DNA of 34,078 nt from Clostridia bacterium (GTDB lineage: Bacteria > Bacillota > Clostridia > Oscillospirales > Acutalibacteraceae). Each line of letters begins with the position of its first letter. The stretch's first letter is position 1. The notes beneath the pieces were generated by a model. The model was given only the letters and a program-made list of their open reading frames with translations, searched no databases and was not told the origin of the DNA. Below are positions 5,085-20,090 of the stretch, piece after piece. Location of the stretch: assembly GCA_017502085.1 (NCBI GenBank), contig JAFVVQ010000024.1:1-34078 (forward strand), given 5' to 3'. Made by a program: the position numbers and the translations under genes.

Positions 5085-5457
5085 GAGTAGACACCGAGAG
5101 GGCTTGTAAGCCGAGTTCTGTCATTTAAGGCAATCATCTGTCTACGCCATACATTGCTGCATGGCTTGAGCCACTTTTCGGAGTATCGTCGAGCAAACGC
5201 CGAAGCCCAAAGGCTTCTCCCCCTGTCAGTGTTGCTTCGGATAGGGTTTGCAGGGCAATGCGGTTCCCCGCATTCCGGTGAGCTCTTACCTCGCCTTTCC
5301 ACCCTTACCTGCATAGCAGGCGGTATATCTCTGTTGCACTTTCCCTAAGGTCACCCTCGGCGGCCGTTAGCCGTTATCCTGCTCTGTGAAGCTCGGACTT
5401 TCCTCACGCAGTTTAAAAACTGCCCGCGACTGCCCGGCCCACTCAGTGTCCGTACTC
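5085..5457 (-). ncRNA. rnpB: RNase P RNA, bacterial type A
   Basis: About 373 nt, the catalytic RNA that removes tRNA 5' leaders. The minus strand shows the conserved regions in order: GAGGAAAGTCCGAGCT with AGCAGGATAACGGC (about 5365-5406), AGGGTGACCTTAGGGAAAGTG, GGGTGGAAAGGCGAGG with GAGCTCACCGG, and near the 3' end GACAGAACTCGGCTTA. Helix P1 can be closed between GACACTGAG at the 5' end and CTCGGTGTC at the 3' end. The RNA ends in a short T-run at 5080-5084. The layout fits type A rather than the Bacillus type B. Its ends are placed from P1 and the promoter, so they may be off by a few bases. Confidence 0.95.
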
Positions 5458-15038: not shown

Positions 15039-15079
15039 AAGGTACTGTCTCCCGAGGGAAACAGTACCTTGATTTTTTT
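15039..15079. terminator. Bidirectional terminator between Crp/Fnr and acyl-CoA synthetase genes
   Basis: AAGGTACTGT (15039-15048) pairs with ACAGTACCTT (15061-15070), with an inner TCCC/GGGA pairing. A T-run follows on the plus strand (15073-15079), and six A precede it (15035-15040), which give T on the minus strand. It sits between two converging genes. Confidence 0.9.
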
Positions 15080-17405
15080 ATTTCTTGTTTGCTTCGCGAA
15101 GCTCAACTCTGCGGATTTTGCCGCTGATTGTTTTGGGAAGTTCGTCTCTGAATTCAACGATTCTGGGATACTTATAAGGTGCGGTATGCTCCTTGACGTA
15201 GGTCTGAATTTCCTTCTTGAGAGCATCGCTTTTTTCGGTTCCCTTGGTGAGAACGATATCAGCCTTGACTACCTGTCCTCTGATTTCATCGGGTGCGGCA
15301 GATACTGCACATTCGAGAACATAGGGAAGTTCCATAATAACGCTTTCAATTTCAAAGGGTCCGATGCGGTAGCCTGATGACTTGATAACGTCATCGACTC
15401 TGCCGACATACCAGAAGAAACCGTCTTCATCTCTCCATGCGGTATCACCCGTATGATAAACGTTATCGTGCCACGCTTCCTTTGTCTTAGCTTCGTCAAG
15501 ATAATATTCCATAAACAGACCGCAAGGTGAGCCGGCATCTGTCCTGACAACGATTTCACCGACTTCGCCGACCTTTGCGGGCTTACCTTCGGATGTGATG
15601 ATATCAACGTCAAACAGCGGGCTGGGTTTACCCATTGAGCCGACCTTGATTGACGTGCCTACAAAGTTTGCGAGAGCAAGGGTCGTTTCCGTCTGACCGA
15701 AGCCTTCCATAAGTCTGATACCCGTTGCCTTGAGGAACTGCTGGAACACCTCGGGATTGAGTGCTTCACCCGCAGTTGTGGCATATTTGATTGAGCTGAG
15801 ATCATATTTGGAAAGGTCTTCCTTAATAAAGAAACGGTACATTGTGGGAGGTGCGCAGAATGTTGTTATCTTGTACTTGCCGATCATCTTAAGAATATCG
15901 TCAGCAACAAAACGGTCGAAGTCATAAGTGAAGACACCTGCTTCGCAGAGCCACTGACCGTAGAGTTTACCCCAGAGAGCTTTACCCCATCCCGTATCGG
16001 AGATAGTGAAGTGCAGACCGTTGGGGTCAACGTTGTGCCAGTATTTTGCGGTGATAAAATGACCGAGAGGATATCTGTGAGTATGAAGTGCGATTTTTGG
16101 ATAACCCGTTGTGCCCGAAGTGAAGAACATAAGCATCGGATCATAGCCGAATGCACCCTCTTCAGGTGAAGGTCTTTCAAAGACGTCACTGAAGTTGCAG
16201 TATTCCTCATCGAAGTTCAGCCAGCCCTCACGTTCACCGTGAGCGATGATTTTCGTCTTGAGAACGGGACATTTTGCTGCTGCAAGTTCAACCTGATGAG
16301 CAACGTCACCGTCAGCCGTGCAGACGATTGCACTGATTTTACCCGCATTGAAGCGGTATTCAAAATCGTGTTCAACAAGCTGGTTAGTTGCGGGAACAAC
16401 GATTGCACCGATTTTATGAAGAGCAAGAATTGAGAACCAGAACTGATAATGACGCTTGAGAACAAGCATTACCTTATCGCCTTTCTTGATTCCGAGCGAC
16501 TTGAAATAGTTTGCTGCCATCGAAGAATGACGGCTCATATCGCTGAAAGTGAAGCGTCTTTCAACACCCTTGTTGTCGATATGAAGCATTGCAGTTTTGT
16601 CGGGTGACTTCTTTGCGATTTCATCAACAATATCAAACGCAAAGTTGAATTTATCATCATCCTTGAATGTGATTCCGTTGAGAACACCGTCTTCATCAAG
16701 AGTTGTTTCGATGAATCTCGAATAAACGGGATTCTGAAGATTCGCAAGATCAACGTTGGTTGTGCTTGCGGTTTTGATTTCTTCAACGTAATCGCTCATC
16801 TCGGTTGAGCCGTCGGGCGAAATAACGATTGCATAGAATTCGCACTCCTGACCGCCAACCGCAATTTCATTATGAGGAACGGAGGAATCGAAGTAGATAC
16901 AGTCGCCCTCGTTGAGAGTTTCCGTTCTGTCACCGATAATCATCTTGAGTGTACCTCTGATGACGATATTGATTTCCTGGCCCTCGTGACTTACACAATG
17001 ATAAGGAGGATTAAGAGCTGACTCCGAATAAGGGATTATTACTCTGAAAGGCTCTGCAATTTTATTTTTGAAGAAGGGTGCAAGTCTGTTATAAACAAAG
17101 CCCTCTCTTCTTGTGATGGGCATACCCTCGCCCTTTCTTGTTACGGTATATTCCGTAAGGCTGGGGCTGCTGCCCTCCATAATATCTGTAATTTCAACGC
17201 CGCAAACCTGAGCAAGGTTATAGATAAAAGTGAAGCTGAAATCACGGCTTCCTGATTCATAGAAGCAATATTCTTCTTCACTGAGACCGATTTTCTCTGC
17301 CATTTCACGCTGTGAAAGGCCCATATCGAGTCTGAGCGCAATAATTCGCTGGGCAACCTCCATGATTTTGTTTTCAACTGAACCTTGACCAAAAGTTATC
17401 ATCAT
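15078..17405 (-). CDS. XRE HTH - cupin - acyl-CoA synthetase fusion protein
   Basis: 775 residues in three parts. Residues 16-75 are an XRE-type HTH (LRLDMGLSQREMAEKIGLSE). Residues about 118-200 are a cupin (HEGQEINIVIRGTLKMIIGD, then EGDCIYFDSSVPH). Residues about 250-775 are an adenylate-forming acyl-CoA synthetase with A3 motif FFTSGTTGYPK (427-437), GFGQTETT, YHTGD, GRVDDVIKSSGYRIGP and the catalytic Lys of ISGKIRR at about 763. It looks closest to the medium-chain/acetyl type. The first two domains alone make an XRE-cupin transcription factor, so the protein may couple fatty-acid activation to gene control. GGAG lies 5 bases before ATG 17405 and 8 before ATG 17402; either start is possible. 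A T-box leader lies directly upstream, and no other gene shares the transcript. Confidence 0.93.
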   Translation of the reverse strand: MMITFGQGSVENKIMEVAQRIIALRLDMGLSQREMAEKIGLSEEEYCFYESGSRDFSFTFIYNLAQVCGVEITDIMEGSSPSLTEYTVTRKGEGMPITRREGFVYNRLAPFFKNKIAEPFRVIIPYSESALNPPYHCVSHEGQEINIVIRGTLKMIIGDRTETLNEGDCIYFDSSVPHNEIAVGGQECEFYAIVISPDGSTEMSDYVEEIKTASTTNVDLANLQNPVYSRFIETTLDEDGVLNGITFKDDDKFNFAFDIVDEIAKKSPDKTAMLHIDNKGVERRFTFSDMSRHSSMAANYFKSLGIKKGDKVMLVLKRHYQFWFSILALHKIGAIVVPATNQLVEHDFEYRFNAGKISAIVCTADGDVAHQVELAAAKCPVLKTKIIAHGEREGWLNFDEEYCNFSDVFERPSPEEGAFGYDPMLMFFTSGTTGYPKIALHTHRYPLGHFITAKYWHNVDPNGLHFTISDTGWGKALWGKLYGQWLCEAGVFTYDFDRFVADDILKMIGKYKITTFCAPPTMYRFFIKEDLSKYDLSSIKYATTAGEALNPEVFQQFLKATGIRLMEGFGQTETTLALANFVGTSIKVGSMGKPSPLFDVDIITSEGKPAKVGEVGEIVVRTDAGSPCGLFMEYYLDEAKTKEAWHDNVYHTGDTAWRDEDGFFWYVGRVDDVIKSSGYRIGPFEIESVIMELPYVLECAVSAAPDEIRGQVVKADIVLTKGTEKSDALKKEIQTYVKEHTAPYKYPRIVEFRDELPKTISGKIRRVELREANKK

Positions 17406-17451
17406 TCATTCTCCTTTCACGATGATTCTGATTTGCTGCTTCGGGACAAAT

Positions 17452-17724
17452 AAAAAAACGCCCCAAAGCAGAGGTTAATCTGCCTTGAGACGAGTATAAT
17501 CTTACCCGCGGTACCACTCAAATTGCGCTTTCGCACCACTCATCAGGCTCCATCAAGCCCTACACCTTAACGCAGTGTCTACGAAAACTGTCTACTCAAC
17601 TGACGTTTTTCGGAGTTTCAGCTCGGAAGGGATAGCTTTGAACTGCTTCGCTGACGGCTCGCACCATACGCCGCCTCTCTGAAAACTCTGCAACTCAGCT
17701 TTCTTCGTCTTCGCTTTTGAATAT
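17452..17724 (-). promoter_or_regulatory. T-box riboswitch, alanine specifier (GCU)
   Basis: On the minus strand the T-box core GAGTGGTACCGCGGG is at 17503-17517. A Stem I distal loop is seen as AGAGAGGCGGCGTATGGTGCGAGCC. The specifier region reads CAAA-GCU-A-UCCCUUCCGAGC (specifier 17634-17636), which aligns with the known GAAA-codon-A-UUCUUGAGC pattern of glycine T-boxes. The UGGU bulge (17513-17516) asks for a tRNA with discriminator A; tRNA-Ala has A, while tRNA-Ser (AGC reading) has G. The terminator is CGTCTCAAGGCAGA (17479-17492) with TCTGCTTTGGGGCG (17459-17472) and seven T. TTGAG of the T-box can instead pair with CTCAA of the terminator, giving the antiterminator. Uncharged tRNA should switch on the gene at 17405. 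This region fills most of the gene-free stretch 17406-17882. Confidence 0.92.
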
Positions 17725-17730
17725 GTTAAT

Positions 17731-17759
17731 AGAATAACACTCTCAAACGAGTTTGTCAA
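17731..17759 (-). promoter_or_regulatory. Promoter of the T-box transcript
   Basis: On the minus strand TTGACA (17754-17759), a 17-base spacer and TATTCT (17731-17736). This places the start of the T-box RNA near 17724. Confidence 0.85.
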
Positions 17760-17882: not shown

Positions 17883-20090
17883 TCAGTTATAAATATAATA
17901 TTTCGGATTCTGGGTTTCGCCTCTGTAAATAACCTCGAAATGAAGATGCGGACCCGTTGAGTTACCCGTCGAACCGACTCTGCCGATTGTTCTGCCTGCC
18001 TCAACGTATTCGCCGACCCTTACGGTAATCGAACCGCTTATCATATGCGCATATCGGGTCTTATATCCGTCACCGTGATTGATGAGAACCATATTTCCGT
18101 ATCCCGAATTGCTGCGCTGAACAACCTCAACCGTACCGCTTCTCGATGCGATAACAGGTGTGCCGCTTGCACCGCCGCCGTATTTGATCAGGTCGATACC
18201 GTTATGCCAACCGCTGTTTCGCCAACCGTACGGTGAACTTACGTAATGACAGCTCGGCGCAGGCCAGAGGAAGCCTGAATCGGAAGGACTACCGACGTAA
18301 ACGCCGTCATAGTAAGTCTTTGTACCGACTGTTACGATTTCATCAACAGGCTCGGTTATGGTCTCATAATCATACTTTGTATCAACGTGTTCCCCGTCAA
18401 TATAGATTTTGGTCCTGATAACCCTTTCGGAGCCGTTGACACCCTTCTGCTCGACCTTCTTATAACTGCTGTACTTTGTGGAATCCTTTTTCTTGATTGT
18501 ATCAAATCTGATTTCTCTGATTTCAGATGTTGTGACGGTTTTTTTGATGTTGATGATTTTCCCCGATTCCCTGATAGTGACACTGTCGCCTTCTGAAATG
18601 TCATTGAAATCGTAATCGGGATTGAGTCCGATAATTTCATCTTCATCCACACCGTATTCTTCTGCAAGAGATGAAACGGTATCTTCCTCGCGCATAATAT
18701 GGATAACCGCATTTTCAGCAGGTTCGTCGAGAGTCTGTGCCAGTTTTGACGCATCCCACATTACACTTGCATCATCTTTATAAAGACCCTGAACGTAATC
18801 GATATTCTGTGCAAAGCCGACAACGTAACCCTCTTCGTCAGCCTGAGCCTCATACGGCTCAAGGATAATATAGAAAACGGTTTTCGCATCCGCTTCGTTT
18901 TTGACCGCACAGATAAATCTGCCGTCGATATAAACTCCGCAGGCATTGGTCAGACTGTCAACGGAGTTTTCAATCATCTTATCCGAAATAGCCTGAGCAT
19001 CGTTAAGCTTATCCACCGATACAACCGATATTTTATAATCTGCATTGAGATTGGCAGACGAAGCAACGGTTGCCTCAACGTCAGTGGAAATTCCGCCGCC
19101 AAGGAGTCTGTCTTTAACAATATCCTTTGCTTCAAGATAGACGGATTCGTTGACAATATATCCGAGGCTTTTCTCGTTGTAGAAAACCTCAAGCGCAAAG
19201 GTGATTCCCGACCAATAACCGACCGTCAGCACAAGAATAACGACCGAAAGCACGGGCATTGCAACGTTGCCGAAAGTTTTAAGGAGCTTCTTGTGTCTTG
19301 AGAAAGCTTTTCTGAAATAATGCAAAAGCACTGCCGGCAGACTTTTGGGATTGCCGAAGGCTTTTCTGATTGACTTCGATGCCGATTTGATTTCTCTGCG
19401 GAAATAAGCGATTTCCTGCAGAGTGGTATGCGTGTATTCTGCCGCTTTGGCTCTCGACTTTGCGGTAAGCAAACCGACAAACCTTTTGACAGCCTTGAAC
19501 GGGAATGAAACAACGCGAAAGACAAGTGACAGCAGTGCCGCAACAAGACCTGAAGTCACGTCACCGAGGGTATATATGAAAGCATATGCCGCATTGCTTT
19601 GCGACAAATCGAAAGCTGTCGTTTCGGTTATCTGTTTCCTCTGTCTTTTCAGCTTCTTCGGTTTTCGGGGTTTCTCTTTCTCAACGTCGGCTTCATCAAC
19701 AGAATATGCGGCGGGTTCGACGGGATTACCGTTAATAAGCTCATCCATTCTGTCGACTTCTTCATCAACAACCGAAGCATCAACCTCAAATTCGATAATA
19801 GGCTTTCTGGGTTGCTGTGTTTCGGTTTTTTCGGTTTCCCGAACGTTATTCTGCGCCTGCTCAAGCTGAATCGAATACCTGCGCTCGATATCCTCTTTGA
19901 TTGCATCAAGCTCAAGCTTACGGCGTTTTTCGTCCCTGAGTTTCAACTCTTCTTCTCTGCTCAGCGGCTTTGCTTTCGGCTTTTTGGACGCACCTGAATA
20001 AACCTCTGACAAATCAAAGAATCCGTCTGTGATTCTGTCAAGAGGCTTCGGTGTTTTATCGGTATCGGGTTTTCTTTTTTCTTCGCCCAT
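17883..20090 (-). CDS. Membrane-anchored M23 peptidoglycan endopeptidase with LysM and G5 domains
   Basis: 735 residues. Order: a long charged, Lys/Glu-rich N-terminal part (1-165), a hydrophobic stretch (about 168-198), a basic linker, a membrane segment (about 275-301), an extracellular region, LysM (about 463-506), a G5-like domain (about 517-590) and M23 (605-735). The zinc ligands are H629 and D633 in HNGID, and H717 in the PHLHFE motif, so the enzyme looks active. M23 enzymes cut peptide cross-links in peptidoglycan, while LysM and G5 bind the wall. The domain set recalls clostridial sporulation or wall-remodelling enzymes, but the large cytosolic part is unusual. GGAGAG precedes ATG 20090 by 4 bases, and a good promoter lies at 20117-20145. 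Confidence 0.9.
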   Translation of the reverse strand: MGEEKRKPDTDKTPKPLDRITDGFFDLSEVYSGASKKPKAKPLSREEELKLRDEKRRKLELDAIKEDIERRYSIQLEQAQNNVRETEKTETQQPRKPIIEFEVDASVVDEEVDRMDELINGNPVEPAAYSVDEADVEKEKPRKPKKLKRQRKQITETTAFDLSQSNAAYAFIYTLGDVTSGLVAALLSLVFRVVSFPFKAVKRFVGLLTAKSRAKAAEYTHTTLQEIAYFRREIKSASKSIRKAFGNPKSLPAVLLHYFRKAFSRHKKLLKTFGNVAMPVLSVVILVLTVGYWSGITFALEVFYNEKSLGYIVNESVYLEAKDIVKDRLLGGGISTDVEATVASSANLNADYKISVVSVDKLNDAQAISDKMIENSVDSLTNACGVYIDGRFICAVKNEADAKTVFYIILEPYEAQADEEGYVVGFAQNIDYVQGLYKDDASVMWDASKLAQTLDEPAENAVIHIMREEDTVSSLAEEYGVDEDEIIGLNPDYDFNDISEGDSVTIRESGKIINIKKTVTTSEIREIRFDTIKKKDSTKYSSYKKVEQKGVNGSERVIRTKIYIDGEHVDTKYDYETITEPVDEIVTVGTKTYYDGVYVGSPSDSGFLWPAPSCHYVSSPYGWRNSGWHNGIDLIKYGGGASGTPVIASRSGTVEVVQRSNSGYGNMVLINHGDGYKTRYAHMISGSITVRVGEYVEAGRTIGRVGSTGNSTGPHLHFEVIYRGETQNPKYYIYN

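Follow-up and report, generated by a model that had tools for sequence, protein, structure and literature searches.

A T-box leader upstream of an XRE-cupin-acyl-CoA synthetase gene

The window analyzed here is a stretch of 34,078 nucleotides (contig JAFVVQ010000024.1, assembly GCA_017502085.1) from a Clostridia bacterium of the Acutalibacteraceae, whose genome (G000 in our set) comprises 2.63 Mb on 66 contigs and is 84.5% complete. Its minus strand, to which all features of the locus belong, carries at 15078..17405 a single open reading frame (ORF) of 775 amino acids, in which Pfam and NCBIfam profiles recognize an XRE-type helix-turn-helix (HTH), a cupin domain and an AMP-forming acyl-CoA synthetase. 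Directly upstream lies a T-box leader, and the sequence comparisons described below indicate that it is an isoleucine T-box.

The leader matches the Rfam T-box model RF00230 over its full length (model positions 1-219 of 219), from Stem I to the antiterminator, at 17483..17720 (85.1 bits, E 4.1e-19 in a scan of the 521-base leader; E 4.9e-19 in a covariance scan of the whole genome). The UGGU bulge, which would pair with the ACCA end of a tRNA, lies at 17513..17516 in this match. An intrinsic terminator stem-loop of 14 pairs with seven T (17459..17492; RNA fold z = -2.93) overlaps the 3' arm of the antiterminator. Just upstream of the T-box, a consensus scan found a promoter (17731..17759; 10/12) of the form TTGACA-17-TATTCT, in which TG precedes the second hexamer. 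The scan returned two sites where 0.9 were expected; the second (17521-17493; 9/12) lies inside the antiterminator and would not bypass the terminator, because it is located 5' of it. The initial annotation had proposed a T-box ahead of this fusion gene, which our analysis bears out, and had considered a bypassing promoter between the terminator and the gene; the consensus scan found none at 17452-17405. A preQ1-II match at 17403-17503 (29.7 bits, cut-off 47) was taken as chance.

Within the protein, the HTH occupies residues 22-74 (17184..17342; HTH_3, E 5e-9) and the cupin domain residues 139-193 (16827..16991; Cupin_2, E 8e-12). The AMP-binding adenylation domain (residues 261-634; 15504..16625; E 2e-59) and the C-terminal AMP-binding_C domain (residues 685-763; 15117..15353; E 1e-20) follow, and all four matches exceed the Pfam cut-offs. 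A terminator scan placed an intrinsic terminator at 15039..15070, which ends the gene and thus makes it a single-gene unit. The HTH, cupin and adenylation motifs are kept in all 13 fused homologues that were aligned, and Gly570 (in GFGQTET) and Trp478 are invariant in these proteins. The nearest solved enzyme is MacsMa of Methanosarcina acetivorans (PDB 3ETC), which aligns with the whole synthetase part (E 2e-199) but is a chain of 580 residues without the XRE-cupin part. In this alignment, numbered by the YHTGD motif (431-435), Trp478 corresponds to the substrate-binding Trp259 of 3ETC, and in our own reading Gly570 would be equivalent to the Gly that replaces Trp414/416 of Acs. By its domains, adenylation motifs and Gly/Trp signature, the synthetase part is predicted to be a medium-chain (Macs-type) acyl-CoA synthetase. 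To our knowledge, no T-box is to be expected in the archaeon M. acetivorans. The best NCBIfam match is MbcS (NF047394), at 451 bits against a cut-off of 850, and the synthetase is therefore not a member of that family.

The specifier reads AUC

In the structure line of the covariance model, GAAG at 17703..17706 forms the 5' side of the helix closing the specifier bulge, and it pairs with CUUC at 17626..17629, as is also seen in the leader alignment. Counted from the end of this bulge, AUC (Ile; 17631..17633) takes bases 2-4, which is the position that TBDB assigns to the specifier (AUC in 99% of Ile T-boxes, according to passages of PMC7778990), whereas GCU lies 5-7 nucleotides from the end. 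A set of 118 distinct leaders from homologous genes has AUC as specifier in 94 cases, GUA in 22 and GUC in 2, and after grouping at 85% identity the 99 representative leaders give AUC 79, GUA 19 and GUC 1. Read in the GCU frame, the same 118 leaders yield 16 different triplets, with GCU in 21. The other T-boxes of the window's genome follow the AUC register. A script read GCC before alaS and GUA before valS; by eye we read UUC before pheS, UGC before cysE, AUC before ileS and UGG before trpB. These NCBIfam names are over cut-off, as is ilvA, except for a partial ileS (575 bits, cut-off 621). Before ilvA, ilvB and ilvC (L208; G000:C66, 8231-9939), two T-box matches overlapping by 11 bases read AUC (Ile) and then CUC (Leu) by eye. 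The conservation of AUC, GUA and GUC among the 118 leaders, together with a register that fits alaS, valS and ileS of the same genome, leads us to read the leader as an isoleucine T-box.

The initial annotation had preferred GCU (Ala) as the better-supported pattern and had taken the UGGU bulge as a pointer to tRNA-Ala. Neither view held up. AUC sits in the specifier position, the GCU frame does not track the AUC-to-GUA switch of the tandem paralogues described below, and the leader alignment rules out both the alanine frame and the shifted frames. Since tRNA-Ala and tRNA-Ile both normally have discriminator A, the bulge cannot tell one from the other. The earlier preference is explicable, because the base 3' of the specifier varies (C 45, A 44, G 4 and U 1 in the 94 AUC leaders). 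The covariance-model check that had been suggested returned a full-length T-box, albeit below the Rfam cut-off and with AUC instead of GCU.

The pairing pattern of the 99 representative leaders fits this structure. For the bulge-closing helix, 387 of 388 cells are paired, and both A-U to G-C and G-C to A-U changes occur; the lower antiterminator helix is paired in 492/495 cells, the terminator in 1088/1168 and the helix directly above the specifier in 316/476. The counts for distal Stem I (181/494) and the upper antiterminator (190/495) are uninformative, as their hand-set registers were wrong. UGGU occurs in 118/118 leaders, with U at the variable place.

Not every leader could be read automatically. 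The specifier pattern gave no reading for L029 and wrong ones for L101, L123, L143 and L160, and the strict T-box motif missed L036 and L120, found by eye, and L178, caught by a looser motif. By alignment, L029, L036, L101, L120, L123, L160 and L161 read AUC. The specifiers of ThrS- and AspS-like leaders (L011, L012) were not cleanly readable. L132, whose promoter is GTGGTATAAT, is a false T-box hit that was nevertheless aligned as 'ATC', so the alignment alone can mislead. The strict set of 118 leaders excludes L132, L161 and L036; the latter two were kept among the 111 proteins of the residue comparison below.

Relatives carry the same leader, and tandem copies switch the codon

A homologue at E <= 1e-80 is present in 51 of 60 genomes, the window's own included. 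In a scan of named genomes, we took the best 80 of at least 592 pattern matches as loci, which is not a census. They belong to Oscillospiraceae, Ruminococcus (including R. flavefaciens SAb67) and other Clostridia, many of them from rumen or gut. The initial annotation had suggested a search for the same leader before homologous synthetase genes in relatives, and it is indeed present there: a T-box motif lies between 420 bases upstream of the gene start and 60 bases inside the gene in 68 of these 80 loci, while one, L152, has too little DNA to judge. Upstream of the synthetase homologues at L119 and L110, which lack the motif, an inverted repeat with a T run was seen by eye and may be another attenuator.

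Many genomes have two head-to-tail copies, with an AUC T-box before the first and a GUA or GUC T-box before the second. A tree built from 70 synthetase parts places 17 of the 18 GUA/GUC copies in one group nested in the AUC copies, with L083 apart, and the specifier labels require 6 changes compared to a shuffled mean of 30.4 (L036 and L120 were labelled as having no T-box, though one is present). At residue 474, close to the acyl pocket, 94/94 AUC-linked enzymes have Gly and 17/17 GUA/GUC-linked enzymes have Ala. No other column of the catalytic part fully separates the two groups; the Gly474 codon lies at 15984..15986 in the window. Ala474 would make the acyl pocket one methyl smaller. Gly is also found in ten T-box-less homologues inspected among the named loci and in L120, which is unfused and has an AUC T-box. 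In the unfused copy of the own genome's 2-oxoisovalerate:ferredoxin oxidoreductase (VOR) operon the residue is Ala, and in other unfused homologues it is Ala, Leu or Met.

Branched-chain pathway genes lie next to the twins

In L170, L176, L182, L185, L190 and L198, relatives of the VorB, thiamine pyrophosphate (TPP) and gamma subunits of the window's own genome follow the AUC/GUA pair. Of the named loci, seven have a GUA copy; the one missing from this list, L179, is on a contig of 5188 bases that ends soon after that copy. The branched-chain aminotransferase IlvE lies further downstream in L170 and L198, the two examined. The order in L170 is AUC-linked synthetase, GUA-linked synthetase, CbiA/ParA-type ATPase, ferredoxin-like ORF (by eye), VorB, beta, gamma and IlvE, after which come a CUC T-box and the first part of a LeuA-like gene. 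VorB and IlvE are over cut-off in both loci; in L170, beta and gamma are best matches below it. The last ORF of L198 is LeuA-like by eye, without a profile match at E 1e-40. In the window's own assembly, contig C36 carries genes for VorB (over cut-off) and the beta and gamma subunits adjacent to those for a separate XRE-cupin protein and a separate synthetase, an arrangement that ties the fused parts to VOR. These neighbours and the AUC register agree with a side remark of the initial annotation, that an AUC (Ile) specifier would fit the activation of branched-chain acids.

Of the 60 genomes, 16 have ketol-acid reductoisomerase (KARI; PF01450) and 13 have IlvA over cut-off, the window's genome being in both groups. 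With the own genome left out, KARI is present in 0/19 genomes with a Val-specific copy vs 15/40 where none was found (Fisher p 0.0012 over 59 genomes, relatedness ignored), and IlvA in 0/19 vs 12/40. The p values are only a guide, because the genomes are related and many are incomplete, and those counted without a Val copy include incomplete ones in which a fragmented second copy is possible, as in G005.

Other T-boxes were observed in the vicinity of these genes. CUC (Leu) T-boxes occur near Ile or Ile/Val synthetase genes at L168:3636, L170:17639, L180:3654 and L198:17459, and the gene that follows is LeuA-like by profile in L170 (partial) and by eye in L168, L180 and L198. A T-box at L174:3634 resembles these, and one on the minus strand of L194 (6034), near an AUC-linked synthetase, apparently reads UUC (Phe). 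In the window's genome, a PaaK-like phenylacetate-CoA ligase gene (L207:6631-7947 minus; TIGR02155, 525 bits, cut-off 646) lies downstream of a T-box at G000:C29:60021-60271 whose specifier is UUC (Phe) by eye. By the same logic, this ligase would activate phenylacetate for phenylalanine synthesis. A sodium/solute symporter gene on C29 is upstream of the Phe T-box and so outside its control, and contig C64 carries iorA and iorB, both over cut-off.

In the window itself, the upstream neighbour on the same strand (17883-20090) encodes an M23 peptidase that also has a G5 domain and matches LysM weakly; it is closed by its own terminator at 17874-17845, between the two genes. A bacterial RNase P RNA of class A lies further away on the minus strand (5091-5445, 274 bits).

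Discussion

From what the sequence provides, namely leader, specifier, gene, tandem pairs, neighbours and the Gly/Ala switch, we infer regulation in the cell, a substrate and a direction of the pathway. We consider it probable that the isoleucine T-box controls an XRE-cupin-fused acyl-CoA synthetase that activates 2-methylbutyrate for reductive isoleucine synthesis. Uncharged tRNA-Ile(GAU) would base-pair at two sites, the AUC specifier and, by its ACCA end, the UGGU bulge; the antiterminator would then form and the synthetase gene would be read. 2-Methylbutyrate present in the gut or rumen medium would be activated by the enzyme to 2-methylbutyryl-CoA, VOR, a 2-oxoacid:ferredoxin oxidoreductase, would carboxylate this reductively to 3-methyl-2-oxovalerate, and transamination would give isoleucine. 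In relatives, the duplicated copy with a GUA/GUC (Val) T-box would likewise lead from isobutyrate to valine. As the initial annotation proposed, tRNA charging is the likely control signal for carboxylate activation. The proposed substrate derives from the specifier, the neighbours and 3ETC, which prefers 2-methylbutyrate according to passages of PMC10455477.

Several observations weigh against this scheme. The T-box score of 85.1 bits is below the RF00230 gathering score of 93, and for this reason the default Rfam scan of the window does not report it; the threshold is passed in 11 of 20 homologous loci scanned and by 3 of the 12 T-box matches of the window's genome. The AUC of the window is followed by C and not by the usual purine (C in 45 and U in 1 of the 118 leaders). 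A tRNA-Ile sequence pattern had no match in the incomplete genome of the window; it matched one of the 60 genomes, G044, the only single-contig one, where ARAGORN called tRNA-Ile(GAU), and the tRNA may be missing from the others because rRNA operons assemble poorly. Eleven of the best 80 loci, nine of them titled Ruminococcus, have no T-box motif. The VOR operon on C36 is not among the 12 T-box matches of its genome. That genome also retains ilvA, ilvB and ilvC downstream of T-boxes and thus has a route besides salvage; our expectation that it would lack ilvA was wrong. Finally, the HTH/cupin columns 59, 100, 120 and 124 separate Ile-linked from Val-linked copies as well as residue 474 does, and the link between codon and residue 474 counts 2-3 independent changes only (p 0.5). 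With so few changes the test cannot reach significance, and we regard the link as suggestive, not as proof.

Other explanations have to be weighed against isoleucine synthesis. MbcS of Staphylococcus supplies branched acyl-CoA for branched membrane fatty acids, and the product of an isoleucine-controlled synthetase could chiefly serve the same end, a view that we find improbable. MbcS is indeed the nearest NCBIfam model, but the score is far below its cut-off, and amino acids are indicated by the existence of a Val twin, by VOR and IlvE as neighbours and by the absence of KARI from genomes carrying a Val copy. Moreover, tRNA charging is not an expected readout of lipid need. Still less probable is that the XRE-cupin part is the point of the fusion, the T-box setting the level of a transcription regulator with the synthetase part as its ligand sensor. 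The HTH and cupin in the 13 aligned fused homologues, the unfused XRE-cupin pair beside VOR in the window's genome and the four separating HTH/cupin columns are compatible with this, but the same 13 proteins retain the adenylation motifs, and a Gly/Ala difference so close to the acyl pocket hints at selection on the substrate. Control by tRNA-Ala charging through GCU can practically be dismissed: GCU is followed by A in the window, like many specifiers, and is compatible with the UGGU bulge, but it is at the wrong distance from the bulge end, is rare and variable in its frame, and the own alaS T-box gives GCC in the register that gives AUC here.

A bolder version of the isoleucine scheme, which we regard as rather unlikely, is a polypeptide under two sensors. 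Here, the mRNA would read tRNA-Ile charging, while the XRE-cupin part would read the acid or its own acyl product and act on a promoter such as that of VOR. The duplicates would then have switched codon, cupin and acyl pocket together, from Ile and 2-methylbutyrate to Val and isobutyrate.

Branched-chain volatile fatty acids, growth factors for ruminococci, have been known since the 1960s to serve rumen bacteria as a source of leucine, valine and isoleucine. The routes from 2-methylbutyrate to Ile and from isobutyrate to Val are credited to work of 1969 and 1971 in the passages of PMC7356843 that treat them. That work is physiology, whereas the present locus offers candidate genes and a putative tRNA-based control. 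With the T-box riboswitches of ileS, valS and the ilv/leu operons the leader shares Stem I, specifier bulge, UGGN bulge, antiterminator/terminator and the codons AUC for Ile and GUA for Val; unlike there, the target is a carboxylic-acid:CoA ligase fused to XRE-cupin, with tandem paralogues that switch the specifier. We found no report of a T-box before an acyl-CoA synthetase in the literature searched, the two main T-box surveys (Vitreschak 2008; Gutierrez-Preciado 2009) and supplements being outside its scope. The main texts of PMC2494555, PMC7778990 and PMC3766115 contain no word beginning with CoA. T-boxes, enzyme family and physiology are each known; their apparent combination, tandem copies with a switched codon included, was not met in that literature.

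If our reading is correct, these genes are candidates for the activation step of branched acids in rumen bacteria, and T-box targets would extend from tRNA synthetases, biosynthesis and transport to the activation of scavenged carboxylic acids. The Phe T-box before the phenylacetate-CoA ligase-like gene would be a second such case in the same genome. The T-box codon would name the amino acid made from the acid and thereby offer a way to tell enzyme substrates apart, for which the Ile/Val twins provide a clean test, since the codon changes in step with one residue near the acyl pocket.

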